Positions 5,785 through 34,483 of a stretch of DNA of 42,219 nucleotides are shown here, one piece after another. The position numbers and the translations under genes are program-made. Source of the DNA: Treponema sp. (GTDB lineage: Bacteria > Spirochaetota > Spirochaetia > Treponematales > Breznakiellaceae); contig JAITNM010000077.1 in assembly GCA_031290475.1 (NCBI GenBank), positions 1-42,219 of the forward strand, read 5' to 3'. Below the pieces are notes generated by a model, which worked only from the letters and a program-made list of their open reading frames with translations, was not told the origin of the DNA and ran no database searches. Within the stretch, counting starts at the first letter, position 1; every line of letters begins with the position of its first letter.

Positions 5785-5924
5785 AGGGCAACGCTGATTA
5801 ACTTGATGCTAATCAGCGTTGCCCTATACATTTGCTCATTTCATTGCGCAAATGCCACATTAAAGTAGCGCTGATTTATGCTCGATTGCATCCGAAACGA
5901 AGTTTCGGCAATCAGTGCTTCCCT
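5785..5924. repeat. 140-bp palindromic intergenic repeat, copy 1 (MITE-like)
   Basis: Same length as copy 2 at 18842-18981, with 135 of 140 bases identical and no gaps. It begins AGGGCAACGCTGATT. The reverse complement of its other end, AGGGAAGCACTGATT, matches 12 of 15, so it has imperfect terminal inverted repeats. Inside are three hairpins: a perfect 15-bp stem (5786-5800 with 5810-5824); a 7-bp stem (5829-5835 with 5848-5854); and a nested one, a 9-bp outer stem ending at AATCAGTGC around CCGAAAC/GTTTCGG (5892-5908). Its right end supplies two bases of the TAG stop of the minus-strand gene at 5923. Confidence 0.9.
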
Positions 5925-6714
5925 AGGCTAAATAAACCGCTACCCGGTCCAGGATTCGGTTGATATTATCCAGCATCCCCAGGTTACCTTTCATAGAAAC
6001 GAGCCCCTGCCCTACACAGCCCAGGGCGCTCACCCTGCCGTCGAACAGATCCCGTGCAAGGGCGAGGCTGGAAAACTCCATCACCGCGTGGGGATGCGCC
6101 GGAATTTCCCGGGACATGGAAAGCGTATGGTTTTGTATGGTGATAGCCGCCTGCAAGGGTCCGCCCCCCTGCCCTGCCCCGGCGATGGAAAGCACGGCCG
6201 TGCCGTCCGCCAGGTTGGACGCCGTGAACCGGCCTATCCTGTCGTGGTTCCCGATCTGGGCTACCGCCCGGGCGATGAGGAAGAACATGATCTCCGTACT
6301 GGCGGCGAAAATAGCCGGATCTTTTAGAGCCTCCGGCGCGGCCCTGAGGTAGGTTTCAAGGATTTTCGTTAAGGAGGTAAAATTCCCGGTGAGGAATTTG
6401 ATCTTCGTAAAACCCTTGCTGGGAATGGGCGTCGCGGTCCCGTCGATCACGGCGTTGAACTTTTCGAAGGAGGAGACGGGCAGTTTTATATCCCACCTTC
6501 CCGCCCCGGGAAGGGCGGTACAGGCGCCGCCGCCGAAACGCAGGGTAACAGCAGGCCCGTTTTTAATGGCAAAACCCAGGGAGAGGGGTTTCCCCCCCGG
6601 CAGGGCCTGGTCTTCCGCCAGGGCGCGGGCTTCGGGAGAGAGACGGCAAAGGTCCTCCAGGGCGGCCAGAATGCCGTACAAATTTATGTAGGCAAGAGTT
6701 TCCCCATCTTTCAT
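5923..6714 (-). CDS. SCP-2-like (sterol carrier type) protein, possibly two tandem domains
   Basis: A 263-residue soluble protein with no signal peptide. Residues about 200-263 (HAVMEFSSLALARDLFDG to the end, with SMKGNLGML) look like an SCP-2 lipid-binding domain. Residues about 45-120 show a similar pattern (TLRFGGG, then FTKIKFLTGN), suggesting two tandem SCP-2-like halves. SCP-2 domains bind lipids or fatty acyl groups; the ligand here is unknown. AAGGAGG lies seven bases before the ATG. A good promoter is at 6735-6763. The TAG stop overlaps the end of repeat copy 1. The family call is by pattern only. Confidence 0.55.
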   Translation of the reverse strand: MKDGETLAYINLYGILAALEDLCRLSPEARALAEDQALPGGKPLSLGFAIKNGPAVTLRFGGGACTALPGAGRWDIKLPVSSFEKFNAVIDGTATPIPSKGFTKIKFLTGNFTSLTKILETYLRAAPEALKDPAIFAASTEIMFFLIARAVAQIGNHDRIGRFTASNLADGTAVLSIAGAGQGGGPLQAAITIQNHTLSMSREIPAHPHAVMEFSSLALARDLFDGRVSALGCVGQGLVSMKGNLGMLDNINRILDRVAVYLA

Positions 6715-17001: not shown

Positions 17002-18843
17002 ATGGCTGATTACGAAGAGCTTGACTATAACTATAAAAAGCCCATGTCCCCCGCTATCTGGAAAAAAATGCTTCCGTTCATCAGAGCCGAGAGGAAGTAC
17101 CTTTCCCGCTGCACCGCGCTCATGCTCTTAGTCGCCGGAATAGACGTGATAGTTCCCCTGCTCCTGGGCTATGCCATCAAACACTATATAGAACCGGGAA
17201 CCGCGGCAGGGGCGTGGAAGATCCTCATCCTCGCCGTCATTCTTCCCGCGGTGCAGGGAATCTGCGTGCAGTTTTTTGTTGCCATGGGAGTTAACGTCGA
17301 GGTGGAGATCAGCCGTTCCCTGCGGAACGCAATCTTCTTCCAGCTTCAAAAATTAAGCCTCTCCTACTACAACAAGACCCCGGTGGGTTATATGATGGCC
17401 CGCACCAATTCCGATACCAGCCGTATCGGCGAACTTATCGCCTGGGGGCTTATCGACTTTTCATGGTCCGCCTTTTACTGCGTTGGGGTTGTGATCTCCA
17501 TGTTCATGGTTCACTGGCAGCTCGCCCTCATCGTTTCCGCCACCATTCCTCCCCTGGCTATCCTAACCTGGTTTTTCCAGCGGAAGATCCTCTCGGTTAA
17601 CCGGATAGTGCGTAAGCTCAACTCAAAGATGACGGGCGCCATGAACGAAGGGATCACCGGCGCACGGACCGTAAAAGTGCTGGTAAATGAGGAACAGAGC
17701 CTGGCTGAGTATACGGGCATTACCGGTAACTACCGCCGCCATGCAAATCACCTGGCGCGCCTAAGGGCTGTCTTCATCCCCCTGGTGCTCTTCATCGGTT
17801 CCCTTGCCACCGCGGTGGTTCTCTCCTACGGCGGCTACGAAATTGTATTCCTGGGAGCGGAACTCTCGGTTCTGGCGATCTTCCTCCAGTATGCCGGGGG
17901 ATTTTTTGATCCCATCCAGAACATTGCCAACATCCTCACCGAATTTGTTTCCACCCAGGCCAATGTGGAACGGGTAAACGATCTTCTGGAACAGATCCCC
18001 GGAATTACCGACCGGAAGGATGTAATCGAAAAATACGGAGACGCCTTTTCTCCCAAAAAAGAAAATTGGGAACCTATTTCAGGTGATGTGGAATTTCGGG
18101 ATGTCACCTTCCGCTACCCCGACGGCAGTGAAAATGTGCTGGAACATTTTAACCTCCACGTTTCCGCCGGCACCTATGTCGCCATTGTGGGCGAAACCGG
18201 GGCCGGCAAGTCCACCCTGGTTAACCTGGTCTGCCGTTTCTTCGAGCCCAGTTCGGGAAACATACTGGTGGACGGCAGGGACTACCGGGAGCGGAGCCAG
18301 CTCTGGCTCCACGGCGCCCTGGGCTATGTCCTGCAGAGTCCCCACCTCTTTACCGGAACGATACGGGAGAATATCCGTTACGGCCGCCTTGAGGCCTCCG
18401 ACGAGGAGGTGGAGACCGCCGCCCGGATAGTCCATGCCGACAAGGTCATCGCCAAACTGGAAAAGGGCCTTGATACCGAAGCCGGCGAGGGCGGCGACCG
18501 TCTTTCCACCGGGGAGAAACAGCTCATCTCCTTTGCCAGGGCGGTGCTTGCGGACCCCCGGATCTTCATCCTGGACGAGGCCACCAGTTCCGTTGACTCG
18601 GAAATGGAAATGCTGCTCCAGGAGGCCATCACCCATCTCCTTAAAGACCGTACCAGTTTTGTCATAGCCCACCGGCTTTCAACGATACGGGGCGCGGATA
18701 TTATCCTTGTTGTGGACGACGGGAAAATAATCGAGCGGGGCGCCCACCGGGAGCTCATGGACAGGGGGGGGCACTACCACGAACTCTACACCCGCCAATT
18801 CGAAGAAGAGACGGAAGAGCGGGTGTTAAGAAGCGGCCATTAG
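17002..18843 (+). CDS. Heterodimeric ABC exporter, catalytic subunit
   Basis: A 613-residue half-transporter with six helices in residues about 1-330 and an ATPase domain after. Walker A GETGAGKST is near residue 400 and Walker B IFILDEATSSVDSE near 522 with the catalytic Glu. The signature is altered to LSTGEKQL near 500. Its signature faces the Walker motifs of the other subunit, so the altered signature and the DDS Walker B meet in one degenerate ATP site while the other site is intact. AGAAGG precedes the ATG at about 10 bases. The TAG stop overlaps the first bases of repeat copy 2. Confidence 0.88.
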   Translation: MADYEELDYNYKKPMSPAIWKKMLPFIRAERKYLSRCTALMLLVAGIDVIVPLLLGYAIKHYIEPGTAAGAWKILILAVILPAVQGICVQFFVAMGVNVEVEISRSLRNAIFFQLQKLSLSYYNKTPVGYMMARTNSDTSRIGELIAWGLIDFSWSAFYCVGVVISMFMVHWQLALIVSATIPPLAILTWFFQRKILSVNRIVRKLNSKMTGAMNEGITGARTVKVLVNEEQSLAEYTGITGNYRRHANHLARLRAVFIPLVLFIGSLATAVVLSYGGYEIVFLGAELSVLAIFLQYAGGFFDPIQNIANILTEFVSTQANVERVNDLLEQIPGITDRKDVIEKYGDAFSPKKENWEPISGDVEFRDVTFRYPDGSENVLEHFNLHVSAGTYVAIVGETGAGKSTLVNLVCRFFEPSSGNILVDGRDYRERSQLWLHGALGYVLQSPHLFTGTIRENIRYGRLEASDEEVETAARIVHADKVIAKLEKGLDTEAGEGGDRLSTGEKQLISFARAVLADPRIFILDEATSSVDSEMEMLLQEAITHLLKDRTSFVIAHRLSTIRGADIILVVDDGKIIERGAHRELMDRGGHYHELYTRQFEEETEERVLRSGH

Positions 18844-18981
18844 GGCAACGCCGATTAACTTGACGCTAATCAGCGTTGCCCTATGCATTTGCTCATTTCA
18901 TTGCGCAAATGCCACATTAAAGTAGCACTGATTTATGCTCGATTGCATCCGAAACGAAGTTTCGGCAATCAGTGCTTCCTT
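18842..18981. repeat. 140-bp palindromic intergenic repeat, copy 2 (MITE-like)
   Basis: Aligns without gaps to copy 1 at 5785-5924; only five differences (element positions 11, 23, 44, 86 and 139). The change at 86 turns a G-U pair of the outer stem into A-U, so that pairing is kept. The change at 44 extends the second hairpin to GCATTTGC/GCAAATGC. The change at 11 leaves one mismatch in the 15-bp first stem. The left end begins at the second base of the TAG stop of the ABC exporter gene. No open reading frame spans the element. Confidence 0.9.
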
Positions 18982-19045
18982 AGGGATTAAAGGCTTATCA
19001 CGATAACCGCCGGAAGCTCCGGGCATCATTTTTAGCGGATTTTGC

Positions 19046-28865: not shown

Positions 28866-30977
28866 ATGAGAAAGTACCTGTTTTTATCACTTGCGGTTCT
28901 TCTGGCCGGGGGCGCCGGCCTTTCCGCCCAGGCTGTACGGGAGGCCCGGGGCGGCGCCGGACCGGCTCAGGCCGCAGCGGGGGCTGAAAAGCTTCCCCTG
29001 AAAAAACTTGCCCTCTATTCCTCCGGGGTGGGGTTCTTTGAACGCCGGGGGACCTTGCCGGATAACGGGGGGAGCGCGGAAACGGTCCTCTCTTTCCCGG
29101 TAAGCGCCGTAAACGATGTGCTGAAATCCCTGGTTATTACCGGGGGCGGCAGTGCTCCTGTCACGGTGAGCTATTCCTCCTTTTTCGCTCCAGGAAATTT
29201 CAGGATAGATCTGGGGAATAATCCGGATATCGCGGAAATTCTGCGCCGTTTCCAGGGTGAGGAAATTGAAATCAACGCGCCTAATCCTCTTCGGGGGAGG
29301 ATCCTGGCAGTGGAATACCGGGATACCCCTTCTTTCACCGAAGGAACCCCCCTTTCCCGGGACGTTTACCTTTCCCTCTTTTCCCCGTCGGGCATTAACG
29401 TCATTAACCTTAAGGACATATCCTCTTTTAATTTTGTGAAAGAGGAAACAAGGGCCGATCTAAGCGGGGCCCTGGATCGTATCGCCGGTTCCCGTAACGA
29501 TGAAAGCAGGGATCTCCGCGTTACCCTCCCCGGCGCCGGCGGTTCGGAAATTACCATAAGCTACGTCATCCCTTCGCCGGTATGGAAAGTTTCTTACCGT
29601 TTGGATCTCTCGGGAACAGAACCCCTGTTCCAGGGATGGGCCATGATTGATAACGACAGCGGTACTGACTGGGACAATATTGAACTATCCCTGGTTTCGG
29701 GGAGGCCCGTATCGTTCATACAGAATCTCTACCCGCCCTACCATGTCGGCCGTCCCGTCCTGCCCCTGGCAATCGCCGGCGCGGCGGCGGGGAGGACCTA
29801 CGATTCCGCCCTGAGTTTCGGCTCGGGAAGCGGCGCTGAGGAAGAGCGGGAAGCGGCCCTTTCCACGCCGCGCAACAGGGTTTTAATGGAAAGCGTGACG
29901 GCCGGCGACAGCGAAGAAGCCGCCTATGCAAGAGAAATTCCCGTGCCTGCGGCCAAGCGGGCGGTGACAGCGGGGGGGACCGCCGCAACGGGAAGCGGAC
30001 TGGCGGATCAGTTTGAGTTTACCCTGAAACAGCCGGTAACCATTAAAGCCGGAAAGAGCAGTATGCTTCCCCTGGTGGAGGCTACGGTTACCGCGGCAAA
30101 GACCCTGGTTTTTTCAGGCGCCGATGCCGCACAGGCCCAGGCAAGAGGCGGCGGGGCAGTTCATCCGGGGATCAGCGCGGAGATCACCAACACCACCGGG
30201 ATGAGGCTCCCCCCGGGGCCCATTACGGTTTATGACGGAGGCTCCTATGCGGGAGACGCCCTGATTGAATTTTTCCCGGAAAAGGAAAAACGGATCGTTT
30301 CCTATGGGGACGATCTCTCCGTTTCCGGAACGACGCGCAATTCCGGGGAACGGCGCATAACGGCGGTGACCGTAAGCAGGGGTATCATGACGGTAAAGCG
30401 CAGCCAGAGTTACGAGACCCTGTATTTACTGCGGAACGCCTCGGAAGAAAGCAAGGCCCTCATCATTGAACACCCCGTTACGGCCGGAACTACCCTGGCG
30501 GAACCTGTTTCTTTCAGCGAACGCACCGATACTGTTTACCGTTTTAAACAAACGTTAAAATCCGGTGAAGAGCTGAGTTTTACGGTAAGGGAAGAACGGC
30601 CGGTGCTGGAGCAGGTGGCGCTTGCCCGGACCCAGCTTGATTCCTGGCTGGGCTATTCCTCGGGAGAGGAGATCCCCGCCAATGTGCGGGAGGCCCTGCG
30701 GAAAGGGGCGGAACTCAAGCGCGGGGCGGACGAAGCCAAGGCGGCCCTGGCGGAAATAGAAAGGGGGCTTAAGCGGCTTGAAGGGGACGAGGAGCGGATA
30801 CGAAAAAACCTGGAAGCCGCAGGCAGGGAGACCCCCCAGGGCCGGGACTACCTCCTCCGCCTCGTTTCCCTGGATAATGAAATTGATGCCCTTGGCGCCC
30901 GGAGGGAAGAGGCCGGCAAGACCGCCCTCGCCTTACAGAAAGAGTACGAAAACTACCTTGATTCCATGAGTTTTTAA
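28866..30977 (+). CDS. Exported DUF4139-type protein
   Basis: A 703-residue protein of unknown function. The signal peptide MRKYLFLSLAVLLAGGAGLSAQA is clear. The middle has the features of DUF4139: ITISYVIPSPVWKVSYRLDL, then WAMIDNDSGTDWDNIELSLVSGRP; a beta-rich C-terminal half follows and the last 90 residues are charged helix (coiled coil). An N-terminal KKLALYSSGVGFFERRG is typical of such proteins. The start at 28866 lies six bases past the -10 with no Shine-Dalgarno; the frame is open to 28815 but without a signal peptide start. It overlaps the convergent ecfT by four bases. Confidence 0.75.
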   Translation: MRKYLFLSLAVLLAGGAGLSAQAVREARGGAGPAQAAAGAEKLPLKKLALYSSGVGFFERRGTLPDNGGSAETVLSFPVSAVNDVLKSLVITGGGSAPVTVSYSSFFAPGNFRIDLGNNPDIAEILRRFQGEEIEINAPNPLRGRILAVEYRDTPSFTEGTPLSRDVYLSLFSPSGINVINLKDISSFNFVKEETRADLSGALDRIAGSRNDESRDLRVTLPGAGGSEITISYVIPSPVWKVSYRLDLSGTEPLFQGWAMIDNDSGTDWDNIELSLVSGRPVSFIQNLYPPYHVGRPVLPLAIAGAAAGRTYDSALSFGSGSGAEEEREAALSTPRNRVLMESVTAGDSEEAAYAREIPVPAAKRAVTAGGTAATGSGLADQFEFTLKQPVTIKAGKSSMLPLVEATVTAAKTLVFSGADAAQAQARGGGAVHPGISAEITNTTGMRLPPGPITVYDGGSYAGDALIEFFPEKEKRIVSYGDDLSVSGTTRNSGERRITAVTVSRGIMTVKRSQSYETLYLLRNASEESKALIIEHPVTAGTTLAEPVSFSERTDTVYRFKQTLKSGEELSFTVREERPVLEQVALARTQLDSWLGYSSGEEIPANVREALRKGAELKRGADEAKAALAEIERGLKRLEGDEERIRKNLEAAGRETPQGRDYLLRLVSLDNEIDALGARREEAGKTALALQKEYENYLDSMSF

Positions 30978-31561
30978 CCGTTATAGCCCTTTGCCTTGAG
31001 GGCCAGGGCTATTTCGTTCGTTCTCTTAAAGAGGGCGAAGAAAAAGGGCTTAAAAATATATTTAACGTTTCCCGCCGACATTTTCATACCCTTGGCCTTT
31101 AAGCCGTAGATTATCTCCTTCAGTTCCCGCTGGAGCACGGGGATAAAGGCGATACAGATACACACCATAAGGCCTATATCCTCAGGATTGATCTTAAATA
31201 CCTTTAAGGGAATAAACAGCAGTTCTACCGAACGGGCAAGTTCCATGGAGGATTCCAGTCGCCTGAAAATAAAAGTAATGTTGCACACCAAAACCAGCCG
31301 GAAAGCCACGAGGAGAGCTTCCCGTACTTCACCCAGGAAGAGGTTGATGAAGGCGGCAAAAAAAATGAAAGGCAGCATTCCCGCAAGTTCCCGGAGAGCG
31401 CCGGTTATTTTAAGGCGAAAAAAGATCATAAGGAAAATGTTGGCAAAGGTGAAAAAAGCAAGGATGAAATAATTTTCGATGAAAAACACAGAAATGGTGT
31501 AAACGATAAGGAGCAGCAGCTTAATAAACCCCGGGATCGCCCCCCTTGTTTCGCCTTTCAT
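30974..31561 (-). CDS. ecfT: ECF transporter transmembrane T component
   Basis: A 195-residue inner-membrane protein of the EcfT/CbiQ family that couples the ATPase to the S component. Several hydrophobic helices fill residues 8-120 (FIKLLLLIVYTISVFFI and others). Two coupling-helix motifs are at IIYGLKAKGMKM and ALALKAKGYNG near the C-terminus, the Ala-x-Gly type signatures that contact ATPase subunits. It starts with an ATGA overlap with ecfA. It is shorter than the commonest T proteins, but both coupling motifs are present. Confidence 0.85.
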   Translation of the reverse strand: MKGETRGAIPGFIKLLLLIVYTISVFFIENYFILAFFTFANIFLMIFFRLKITGALRELAGMLPFIFFAAFINLFLGEVREALLVAFRLVLVCNITFIFRRLESSMELARSVELLFIPLKVFKINPEDIGLMVCICIAFIPVLQRELKEIIYGLKAKGMKMSAGNVKYIFKPFFFALFKRTNEIALALKAKGYNG

Positions 31562-32388
31562 TCCGGTCTCCCGGGGCGCGAAAACGCACGCCCTATCTCG
31601 TCAACCAGTTCGTCAATGGTATAATCCTTCACCCTGATATCAAGTCCCCGGCTTTTCAGGCGGCAGGCGACATCCAGGACAAAGGGCGTTTCAAGGGCCA
31701 GGGATTTAAGCTTATCCACATTATCCAGAAGCTCTTCCCGCTTAAATTCACATTCTATCTTGCCCCGGTTAAGTATCACGATCCGATCCGCGGAAAGCAC
31801 TTCATCTATCACATTGGTAACATAGAGAATAGTCAGCCCCTGTTTATGAAGATCCACAATGATGCGGTGAATGTCTTTCTTACCCTGGGGGTCCAGCATG
31901 GCCGTGGGCTCGTCGAAAATGATGTACCCCGGCTTCATCGCCAAAACACCGGCGATGGCGACCCGCTGCTTCTGCCCCATGGAAAGTTCAAAGGCGTCCT
32001 CAAAGTATTCGATCTTGAGGGTTTGGGTGATCTCCGTAATACGTTCCTGTATCTCTTTTCCATCGAGCCCGAGGTTTTTCAGGCCAAAGGCAATATCATC
32101 CCTCACCTTTTCAAACACAATTTGGTTTTCCGGATTCTGAAACACAACGCCCAGGTTCTTCCGCAGTTCCAATGTTTTTGACCCGTCCCGGGTATTGATG
32201 CCGTTTACCAGCACCGAGCCCTTCGTGGGCATATCCATCCCCGAAAGGACCCTGGCCAGGGTTGATTTTCCCGAACCGTTATGGCCCACAATTGCGACAA
32301 ATTCTCCCTCTGCTACCCTAAGGTTAATATCCTCCAGGGCGCGGAGACCGGAGCGGTATGTGTACTCAACCGATTGACAGATAATCAC
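31558..32388 (-). CDS. ecfA: ECF transporter ATPase (EcfA) lacking the switch histidine
   Basis: A 276-residue ABC ATPase for vitamin uptake. Walker A GHNGSGKST is near residue 35, Q-loop VFQNPENQIVFEKV, signature LSMGQKQR and Walker B IIFDEPTAMLDP with the catalytic Glu. The switch (H-loop) His, normally YITHxMDEA, is Asn here: ILYVTNVIDEV. The signature is LSMGQ instead of LSGGQ. Only one EcfA gene is in the operon, so either a second ATPase is coded elsewhere or this one works as an altered homodimer. The start is GTG in TAGTG, overlapping the S-component stop by one base. Confidence 0.88.
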   Translation of the reverse strand: MIICQSVEYTYRSGLRALEDINLRVAEGEFVAIVGHNGSGKSTLARVLSGMDMPTKGSVLVNGINTRDGSKTLELRKNLGVVFQNPENQIVFEKVRDDIAFGLKNLGLDGKEIQERITEITQTLKIEYFEDAFELSMGQKQRVAIAGVLAMKPGYIIFDEPTAMLDPQGKKDIHRIIVDLHKQGLTILYVTNVIDEVLSADRIVILNRGKIECEFKREELLDNVDKLKSLALETPFVLDVACRLKSRGLDIRVKDYTIDELVDEIGRAFSRPGRPE

Positions 32389-32936
32389 TATTTTTCCCCG
32401 GCAGAAACACTCTCCGCATCGTAGAGATACTTGTTTACAGGTCTGGCAAGAAACACCTTGAGCAGAAACATGGTCCCGGTCTCAACAGGGAACCTGATTG
32501 CCGCAGAAAAGACCCGCAGGGGAAGGAGCGCGACAAAGGCCTTCTTCACAGTAATTGCAATCCACAGGCTTGTTAAGCCGGTACTGATAAATATAAGCAC
32601 CATGAGATTGCTGATAATAAGCCGGACGACAAATTTCCTGTTGGAAATTGTGATCGTCTTGTAGAGGAAAAGTCCGTACACAAGGCCGGTCAAAGCAGCG
32701 CTGATAGTGTAGCCTGCAAAATAGGCCCCCTTGGGGAAGAGAAGCATTCCCAGGAGGTCCCCCAGTACGGCAATGGCGGTACTCCACCCCGGACCAAGCA
32801 GGATCCCGCTTAGAATCAGGGGAACATAGGCGAAACTGATTCGTAGTATCGGCGTTTGAATGGAAATGAGTCTTTCAACGACGAGCAGGGTCGCCAGGAG
32901 CAAGCTTCCCAAAACTAATTTTTTGACCTTCTCCAT
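32388..32936 (-). CDS. folT: ECF transporter substrate-binding S component, folate (FolT) type
   Basis: A 182-residue membrane protein with about six helices that binds the vitamin. The segment SFAYVPLILSGILLGPGWST, then GDLLGMLLFPKGAYFAGYTI and TGLVYGLFLYK, matches the folate-type S component family. The divergent neighbour is folC, which polyglutamylates folates and so traps them, supporting folate as substrate. The start codon at 32936 is preceded by AGAGG 11 bases away, a long spacing, inside a leader that can fold in two ways. It is followed directly by ecfA and ecfT. Confidence 0.8.
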   Translation of the reverse strand: MEKVKKLVLGSLLLATLLVVERLISIQTPILRISFAYVPLILSGILLGPGWSTAIAVLGDLLGMLLFPKGAYFAGYTISAALTGLVYGLFLYKTITISNRKFVVRLIISNLMVLIFISTGLTSLWIAITVKKAFVALLPLRVFSAAIRFPVETGTMFLLKVFLARPVNKYLYDAESVSAGEK

Positions 32937-32997
32937 AAGGTAAGGAACCTCTTAGCCTCAAGTTAATCAGTGGTTCCCAAGGAACCGATCCTAATCC
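32937..32997 (-). promoter_or_regulatory. folT leader with two mutually exclusive helices
   Basis: On the transcript, GGTTCC (plus 32981-32986), GGAACC (32972-32977) and a second GGTTCC (32944-32949) occur in order. Segments 1 and 2 make a 6-bp hairpin with a 3-base loop. Segments 2 and 3 make a helix with a 22-base loop that includes bases next to the AGAGG ribosome site. The second pairing could block translation. The loop TGATTAACTTGAGGCTAA matches the first hairpin of the 140-bp repeat. It does not match the tetrahydrofolate riboswitch consensus I know. Confidence 0.5.
32944..32979 (-). repeat. Relic of the 140-bp repeat's terminal hairpin
   Basis: Minus strand CTGATTAACTTGAGGCTAA agrees with 18 of 19 bases of repeat copy 1 (element positions 10-28), and the GGGAACC / GGTTCCT arms are equivalent to its GGGCAACG / CGTTGCCC arms. 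The rest of the element is absent. Confidence 0.6.
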
Positions 32998-33003
32998 ATG
33001 GGC

Positions 33004-33032
33004 AGAATACCCAGCAACCCTGCTTCTGTCAA
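33004..33032 (-). promoter_or_regulatory. Promoter of the folT-ecfA-ecfT operon
   Basis: On the minus strand the -35 is consensus TTGACA (plus 33027-33032), the spacer 17 bases and the -10 TATTCT (plus 33004-33009). This gives a leader of about 60 bases. Confidence 0.75.
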
Positions 33033-33091: not shown

Positions 33092-34483
33092 ATGATACCA
33101 ACCATTGATGACCTGGCCGCCTGGCTTGAACAATTTGAAAACAACGAAAGGCTTCCCGCTTTTAAGCCCTTCAACCTGGATAAGATGCGGATCATCTCCC
33201 GGATTGCGGGCCATCCTGAAACCTGCGCCCCGGTGATCCATGTCGCGGGTTCCAAAGGGAAGGGCTCGGTGACCGCCATGATTGCCTCTATTCTGGAAGC
33301 GGCGGGTATCAAGACCGGCCGATACACCTCCCCCCGGCTTTGCAGCTACTGGGACCGGATAAGTCTGGGAAACGGCCTTTTTCCCGCCGGGATCTACGTT
33401 GAAGCCGGTCGGGAACTCGCAGAAACGGAAGAACGGCGCCTTCTGGAGTTTTCAAAAGGAGGGGACAACAAGCCTTCGCTCTTTGAGATGTTCACCCTTC
33501 TCTTTTTCCTCTGTTCCCGCAGGAGCCGCTGCGAAGCCATGGCGGTAGAAACCGGCCTTGGAGGGCTTAACGACGCCACTAACATTGTGAAAAGCGAAGT
33601 ATCGGTTATTACCCTGATCGAAAAGGAACACACTGAAATTTTGGGAAACACCATCCCTGCTATTGCCGCCCAAAAGGCGGGGATCATTAAGGCGGGAAAA
33701 CCCCTGGTTCTGTCCAGGCAGGAAGGAGCAGCCCTGGAAGTTTTCCGCAAAGCGGCGGCGGAAAAAAAAGCGCCTCTTTACTATCTTCCCGAAACCGTAG
33801 CGGTTGAGAATATCGCCGTTTCAAAAGAGGGAACCGCCTTTTCCCTCCGCCCCACGGGAATAGCCGGCCTCAAGAAAAGGCTCGATCTTTTTATACCCGT
33901 TCCCGGGGCGGTTCAGGCGGAAAACGCGGCCCTGGCAGTTATTGGGGTAAAAACCGCCTTTCCCGCAATTGGGGAAGACAGTATACGGAGGGGCCTTTCC
34001 GCCGTCAGCCTCCCCGCCCGTTTTGAGAGACTTTCTTCCAATCCGGCAATCGTCATTGACGGCGCCCACACACCGCGAAGTGTAGAAACATGTGTAAACA
34101 CCTTTATAAGCCTTTACGGCAAAGGGGGAATCCTCATCTTCGGCTGCGCCGCAGGCAAAGACGGGGAATCGATAGCAAAACTGCTCACCCCCCATTTCTC
34201 ACAGATCATCATCACCGCCCCGGGGACCTATAAGGTTAGTTACCCCGAAGAGGTGTACCGGATCTTTCTCGCCGCCGTAAAAGGACCGCCGCCGCGGAAC
34301 TCCTGTCATTCAGTCCTTCCCGCCGGGGAAAAGGTCCTCCTGATACGGGACGCAAAGACCGCGCTGGAAGAGGCCCTTTCCCGGTCCCGTGAACAGGGCC
34401 TTCCTGTTTTGGGAACCGGTTCCTTTTATCTGGCGGCGGAGATCCGCGGTATTTATACCGGCATGACAGGTCAGAAAGAATAG
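33092..34483 (+). CDS. folC: Folylpolyglutamate synthase / dihydrofolate synthase
   Basis: A 463-residue Mur-ligase-fold enzyme adding glutamates to folates, which keeps them in the cell. VIHVAGSKGKGSVTAM (residues about 48-63) is the ATP loop, TSPRLCSYWDRI the following motif, VETGLGGLNDATNIV the conserved Mg/ATP segment, and AIVIDGAHTPRS, then LIFGCAAGKD, the C-terminal domain motifs. The start at 33092 lacks a Shine-Dalgarno and lies seven bases after TATACT. It is divergent from the folate-type ECF operon and overlaps the convergent beta-barrel gene by 13 bases. Confidence 0.93.
   Translation: MIPTIDDLAAWLEQFENNERLPAFKPFNLDKMRIISRIAGHPETCAPVIHVAGSKGKGSVTAMIASILEAAGIKTGRYTSPRLCSYWDRISLGNGLFPAGIYVEAGRELAETEERRLLEFSKGGDNKPSLFEMFTLLFFLCSRRSRCEAMAVETGLGGLNDATNIVKSEVSVITLIEKEHTEILGNTIPAIAAQKAGIIKAGKPLVLSRQEGAALEVFRKAAAEKKAPLYYLPETVAVENIAVSKEGTAFSLRPTGIAGLKKRLDLFIPVPGAVQAENAALAVIGVKTAFPAIGEDSIRRGLSAVSLPARFERLSSNPAIVIDGAHTPRSVETCVNTFISLYGKGGILIFGCAAGKDGESIAKLLTPHFSQIIITAPGTYKVSYPEEVYRIFLAAVKGPPPRNSCHSVLPAGEKVLLIRDAKTALEEALSRSREQGLPVLGTGSFYLAAEIRGIYTGMTGQKE

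Follow-up and report, generated by a model that had tools for sequence, protein, structure and literature searches.

The window, that is, the whole 42,219-nucleotide stretch of treponemal DNA that was analysed, carries on its minus strand a folT gene (32388 to 32936) for the S component of an ECF transporter of the folate family (TIGR04518, E = 5e-37, over the cut-off). It is followed on the same strand by a gene for an ecfA-like ATPase (31558 to 32388) and by a gene for an ecfT-like transmembrane protein (30974 to 31561); the latter resembles CbiQ weakly, below the Pfam cut-off, and is the conserved third gene of the operon in relatives. Indeed, the order folT-ecfA-ecfT was found in all relatives with enough flanking sequence. 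The divergent upstream neighbour is folC (33092 to 34483, plus strand), an arrangement seen in the window only, since no folC was present within the folT flanks examined in the relatives. A sigma-70 promoter of folT is predicted on the minus strand at 33004 to 33032 (10 of 12 matches), with TTGACA (33032 to 33027) and TATTCT (33009 to 33004) separated by a 17-nt spacer, and the transcript is predicted to start near position 32997. The ribosome-binding site (RBS), AGAGG, lies at 32948 to 32952 (minus strand), 11 nt upstream of the start codon (ATG, at 32936).

According to a preliminary description, the folT leader holds GGTTCC, GGAACC and GGTTCC in this order, giving two mutually exclusive helices, the second of them next to the RBS. 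The segments were indeed found in the minus-strand sequence in that order, at 32986 to 32981 (segment 1), 32977 to 32972 (segment 2) and 32949 to 32944 (segment 3), and the geometry holds, since segment 2 can pair with either of the others and segment 3 overlaps the AGAGG of folT. The predicted start lies upstream of segment 1, not downstream of it, so all three segments would fall inside the folT transcript. If this were a working two-state translational switch, segment 2 would pair with segment 1 to leave the RBS open or with segment 3 to close it, in response to a ligand, a protein or temperature. A triple of exact 6-mers of this form (x, x', x) is rare by chance: dinucleotide shuffling of the leader produced one in 0.075% of cases, and of 2108 61-nt tiles across the window 8 contained one. 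This rarity, the similar energies of the isolated helices (-6.7 and -7.8 kcal/mol) and the position of all segments within the predicted transcript are what a switch would lead one to expect. When the leader was folded in context, however, the segment 1-2 helix had a probability of 0.99 and the RBS-closing segment 2-3 helix one of 0.003, values that were robust to the assumed transcript ends, and the ensemble energy of the closed state was less favourable by about 3.6 kcal/mol. The two states are thus not both energetically accessible. The order of synthesis also favours the open state, since the segment 1-2 helix would form first during transcription and the RBS-closing helix later. Because the first helix dominates and forms first, and because the GAGG of the RBS is predicted to be 96% unpaired, the default state is predicted to be open. 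Conservation of the three segments in orthologous leaders, which the preliminary description had named as a check, was not found in the comparison of folT leaders: only the GGTTCC of the RBS spacer recurs. Since orthologues read AAGGAGGTTCCTTATG or a variant of it at the same place, segment 3 was probably inherited and lies outside the repeat described below, and an inherited RBS spacer accounts for it without a switch. Taken together, a two-state switch appears quite improbable, and the folding model suggests that the hairpin probably leaves folT switched on and is not a new switch.

The stretch GGGAACCACTGATTAACTTGAGGCTAA at 32952 to 32978 (minus strand) derives from a dispersed hairpin repeat, of which it represents the terminal inverted repeat and the loop, and segment 2 lies within the repeat's terminal sequence GGGAACCACTGATTA. 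The GATTAACTTGAGGCTAA core at 32968 to 32952 (minus strand) is the signature of this transposon-like repeat, two full 143-bp copies of which, 97% identical, are present on the plus strand of the window (5785 to 5927 and 18842 to 18984). With a first-hairpin profile, the folT site scored 20.0 bits and the next non-repeat site of the window -1.8 bits, and a match of the type CTGATTAACTTGAGGCTAA is expected by chance 0.01 times in the window (at most 3 mismatches). These data confirm the identity of the repeat in the folT leader. The preliminary description had matched the second helix to the repeat; this stands for the 5' arm and the loop, where CTGATTAACTTGAGGCTAA agrees with the first hairpin of the repeat in 18 of 19 bases, but not for the 3' arm (AGAGGTTCC), which matches the RBS and spacer of the orthologues, AAGGAGGTTCCTTATG. 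In the window's genome, the 17-mer GATTAACTTGANGCTAA (at most 1 mismatch) was found at 38 sites, versus 0 for the reversed control; across the family it was seen in 40 of the 200 genomes and in 26 of the 57 genera, with a patchy spread and up to 64 sites in one genome. The repeat has many copies and is devoid of coding capacity. Full copies have related ends of the GGGAASCRCTGATTA type at both termini, that is, terminal inverted repeats, and GGGAASCRCTGATTA is present elsewhere in the window's genome as well. The first hairpin is a palindrome with a constant loop (GATTAACTTGAYGCTAATC), and its outer arms vary among copies and stay complementary (GGGCAACGCT/AGCGTTGCCC, GGGAAATGCT/AGCATTTCCC and others). 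TA borders both ends of many copies.

The repeat is best called MITE-like: it shares with MITEs its short length, the lack of coding capacity, terminal inverted repeats, the occurrence of many and of solo copies, and a location in untranslated regions. Correia/nemis elements are likewise small palindromic repeats that are dispersed and occur in untranslated regions. The family with the apical GATTAACTTGAYGCTAATC was not linked here to any named element. REP elements with their RAYT proteins are similar as short hairpins scattered between genes, but a RAYT/REP origin was rejected, since a Y1 transposase (PF01797) was not found in the assembly of the window's genome (87% complete). At further loci of that genome (L064, L066, L077, L083 and L084) the first hairpin occurs solo or broken, and in L064 an insert separates the 3' arm from the rest of the hairpin. 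In five other genomes (G039, G047, G062, G063 and G069), many copies lie about 90 to 140 bases from contig ends; assemblies thus seem to break within the repeat, and copy numbers are probably underestimated.

Of 200 family genomes, 22 (among them that of the window) have FolT relatives, and in 19 of these 22, all from one termite-gut-type spirochaete family, folT is preceded by a conserved leader RNA with the consensus UUGnUGAAAUUU, a stem and then ACCRAnnCAAGGAGG. Twelve leaders from five genera have in common UUGnUGAAAUUU, the stem and ACCAAnnCAAGGAGG; L032, the nearest orthologue, has CAGGGGG as its RBS. With a covariance model (R1), 21 sites were detected at E < 1e-9, distributed over 20 family genomes. 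All strong sites with enough downstream sequence precede folT, and two (L096 and L097) are cut by contig ends. The loci include L085:1501-1559(-), L086:148-216(+), L089:1501-1564(-), L090 to L104 and others. In a 393-genome sample of the phylum, R1 matched only a family member (G083) at E <= 1e-4, so that the folT motif was not found outside the family in that sample. Weaker R1 matches (E of 1e-5 to 1e-2) before other genes were judged to be chance, mostly good RBSs. When about 85,000 species were scanned for the exact pattern, 22 matches were obtained, 20 of them in Spirochaetaceae, Treponema or Spirochaetia records; the two Bacteroidetes matches lie inside a transaldolase-like reading frame and were discarded as chance. 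In genus g17 (L037:2179-2231(-), L038 to L043, L096 and L097), the leader RNA is followed by a short, conserved reading frame of the MMPDRAAFQFR type, about 150 nt upstream of folT, and the 5' AGGCAUCAU has two alternative pairing partners there, GAUGCCU upstream of the core and AUGAUGCCU at the start codon of the short frame.

The P2 stem of this RNA has compensatory changes at all 6 of its pairs (24 double-change cells), a level reached in none of 500 shuffles, and the covariation collapsed when the P2 pairing partners were slid. For the outer helix, P1, two registers are consistent with the alignment, one in which UUG pairs with CRA (alignment A3, columns 59 to 61) and one in which CUUG pairs with CAAG in the RBS (columns 64 to 67); since the pairs are mostly invariant, with neither register backed by double changes, P1 is less well supported than P2. 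The RBS of motif-bearing leaders is predicted to be unpaired with probabilities of 0.21 to 0.47, compared to 0.96 for the GAGG of the window. A folate-linked leader RNA, different from the hairpin in the window, does seem to exist at folT in relatives, and it is a candidate folate riboswitch. Even at lax thresholds, Rfam families, the THF-II model included, did not match the relatives' folT leaders, and we found no description of this RNA in the literature searched.

The conserved RNA is present with strong covariation in the relatives and absent from the assembly of the window's genome, in which R1 had no match. A protein search of a set of genome contigs for close FolT relatives confirmed none. 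The window leader itself might still be a strongly diverged member of the family, and CCTTG and AAGAGGTTCCTT do look similar to the outer parts of the motif. The leader has neither of the invariant cores, UGAAAUUU and ACCRA, however, and the best R1 score was 3.4 bits even with filters off, which largely refutes this reading and leaves it with a very small probability. In the FolT tree the window groups with G119 and G120 (98/97), and G119 retains the motif. Alignment of the window promoter with that of the nearest orthologue, L032 of G119, gave a score of 27, reached in 0 of 300 shuffles, for a short stretch that owes part of its similarity to the promoter consensus, and the distance from promoter to ATG is nearly equal in the two (67 nt in the window and 65 nt in G119). 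A common ancestry of the window's promoter and RBS with those of the nearest relative is supported by these sequences, but modestly so. The repeat-derived stretch fills just the interval that holds the motif in this relative.

This coincidence bears on whether the hairpin is a passive insertion devoid of regulatory meaning, with the loss of the RNA and the arrival of the hairpin as unrelated events. Solo hairpin copies are common, mostly intergenic and often located after gene ends, and two other folT genomes, G120 and G143, have no motif either and carry no hairpin of this repeat family in the leader, which favours this reading. On the other hand, among 30 copies examined a repeat stretch directly abutting an RBS is clear only at folT, and it is there that the repeat occupies exactly the interval of the motif; we consider a merely passive insertion unlikely, though less so than a two-state switch. 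Since G143 sits apart from the window and G120 on the tree, the motif was probably lost more than once. The motif-free folT genomes (G000, G120 and G143) had no match to folK and none to folP above the cut-off; folK was present in 6 of 16 motif-bearing genomes tested. That an off-switch becomes dispensable once folate must be imported is only a hint, because several motif-bearing genomes also have no folK or folP and many assemblies are incomplete.

The explanation that we favour, with a probability of about 0.6, is that a mobile hairpin replaced an ancestral folT leader RNA and left the RBS open, whereas the RNA of the relatives would close the RBS with folate. A solo terminal hairpin of the MITE-like repeat would have inserted downstream of the promoter and upstream of the RBS of the folT-ecfA-ecfT operon, taking the place of the conserved, aptamer-like leader RNA still present there in most relatives, with the promoter and the RBS staying in place. 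Against this, the insertion is decayed: a target-site duplication is not clear at folT, and the 3' arm has no clean repeat end. The relatives compared are all outside the genus of the window, and they include no intermediate of the replacement. Judged from folding, segments 1 and 2 would form the first hairpin, the RBS would be open and folT would be translated constitutively; in the relatives, abundant folate would cause the leader RNA to close the RBS, much as a THF-II riboswitch does. The window would then represent a natural loss of folate control. Thus, of the earlier proposal that a mobile hairpin had been adopted as a regulator of folT, the repeat origin stands, but the switch is unlikely, with a predicted closed state of 0.3% and segments that are not conserved.

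The absence of a folate riboswitch match in the window leader, also noted in the preliminary description, was upheld by an Rfam search that found nothing, the THF-II model included. The THF-I riboswitch of Firmicutes can control folT (PMC9881143), but it has a three-way junction with a pseudoknot, and the folT leaders studied here gave no Rfam match. In the THF-II aptamer, P1 and P2 are joined by an asymmetric junction with J12 = U C A A C U C and J21 = a single U, and the RBS forms part of the right arm of P1, which is closed with ligand bound (PMC6800512, PMC9881143). By eye, the layout of the relatives' RNA resembles this: P2 and the less well supported P1 would be joined by an asymmetric, highly conserved junction, with the RBS in the right arm of P1; the RNA spans about 60 nt up to the start codon, and a folate-related gene lies downstream. 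If U17-A57 closes P2, J12 would be YUGAAAUU (8 nt) and J21 would be C, so that the AA-pyrimidine run in J12 and the single-pyrimidine J21 would correspond to A20 A21 C22 and U44 of THF-II. Unlike in THF-II, however, the J21 nucleotide is C and the J12 pyrimidine is U, the Rfam model does not recognise the RNA even at lax thresholds, and the gene downstream is folT of spirochaetes and not, as for THF-II, folE of Rhizobiales. The window leader does not have the structure at all. It is conceivable, although we would put it at somewhat below even odds, that termite-gut treponemes have a new THF-II-like folate riboswitch unmatched by known models and that the hairpin in the window took the place of its aptamer, with the three-segment topology kept.

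Of greater interest than the hairpin in the window is the leader RNA conserved before folT in the relatives. If the window is a natural loss of this RNA by a mobile hairpin, its role becomes directly testable by comparing both leaders. Some termite-gut treponemes rely on their neighbours for folate: Treponema primitia cannot make it, and its growth is supported by bacteria of the termite gut that secrete 5-formyltetrahydrofolate (PMC4086397). If the candidate is a true folate riboswitch, it would be a third class of THF riboswitch or the first relative of THF-II outside the Rhizobiales, and a folate-sensing leader would sit in a group with known folate cross-feeding.
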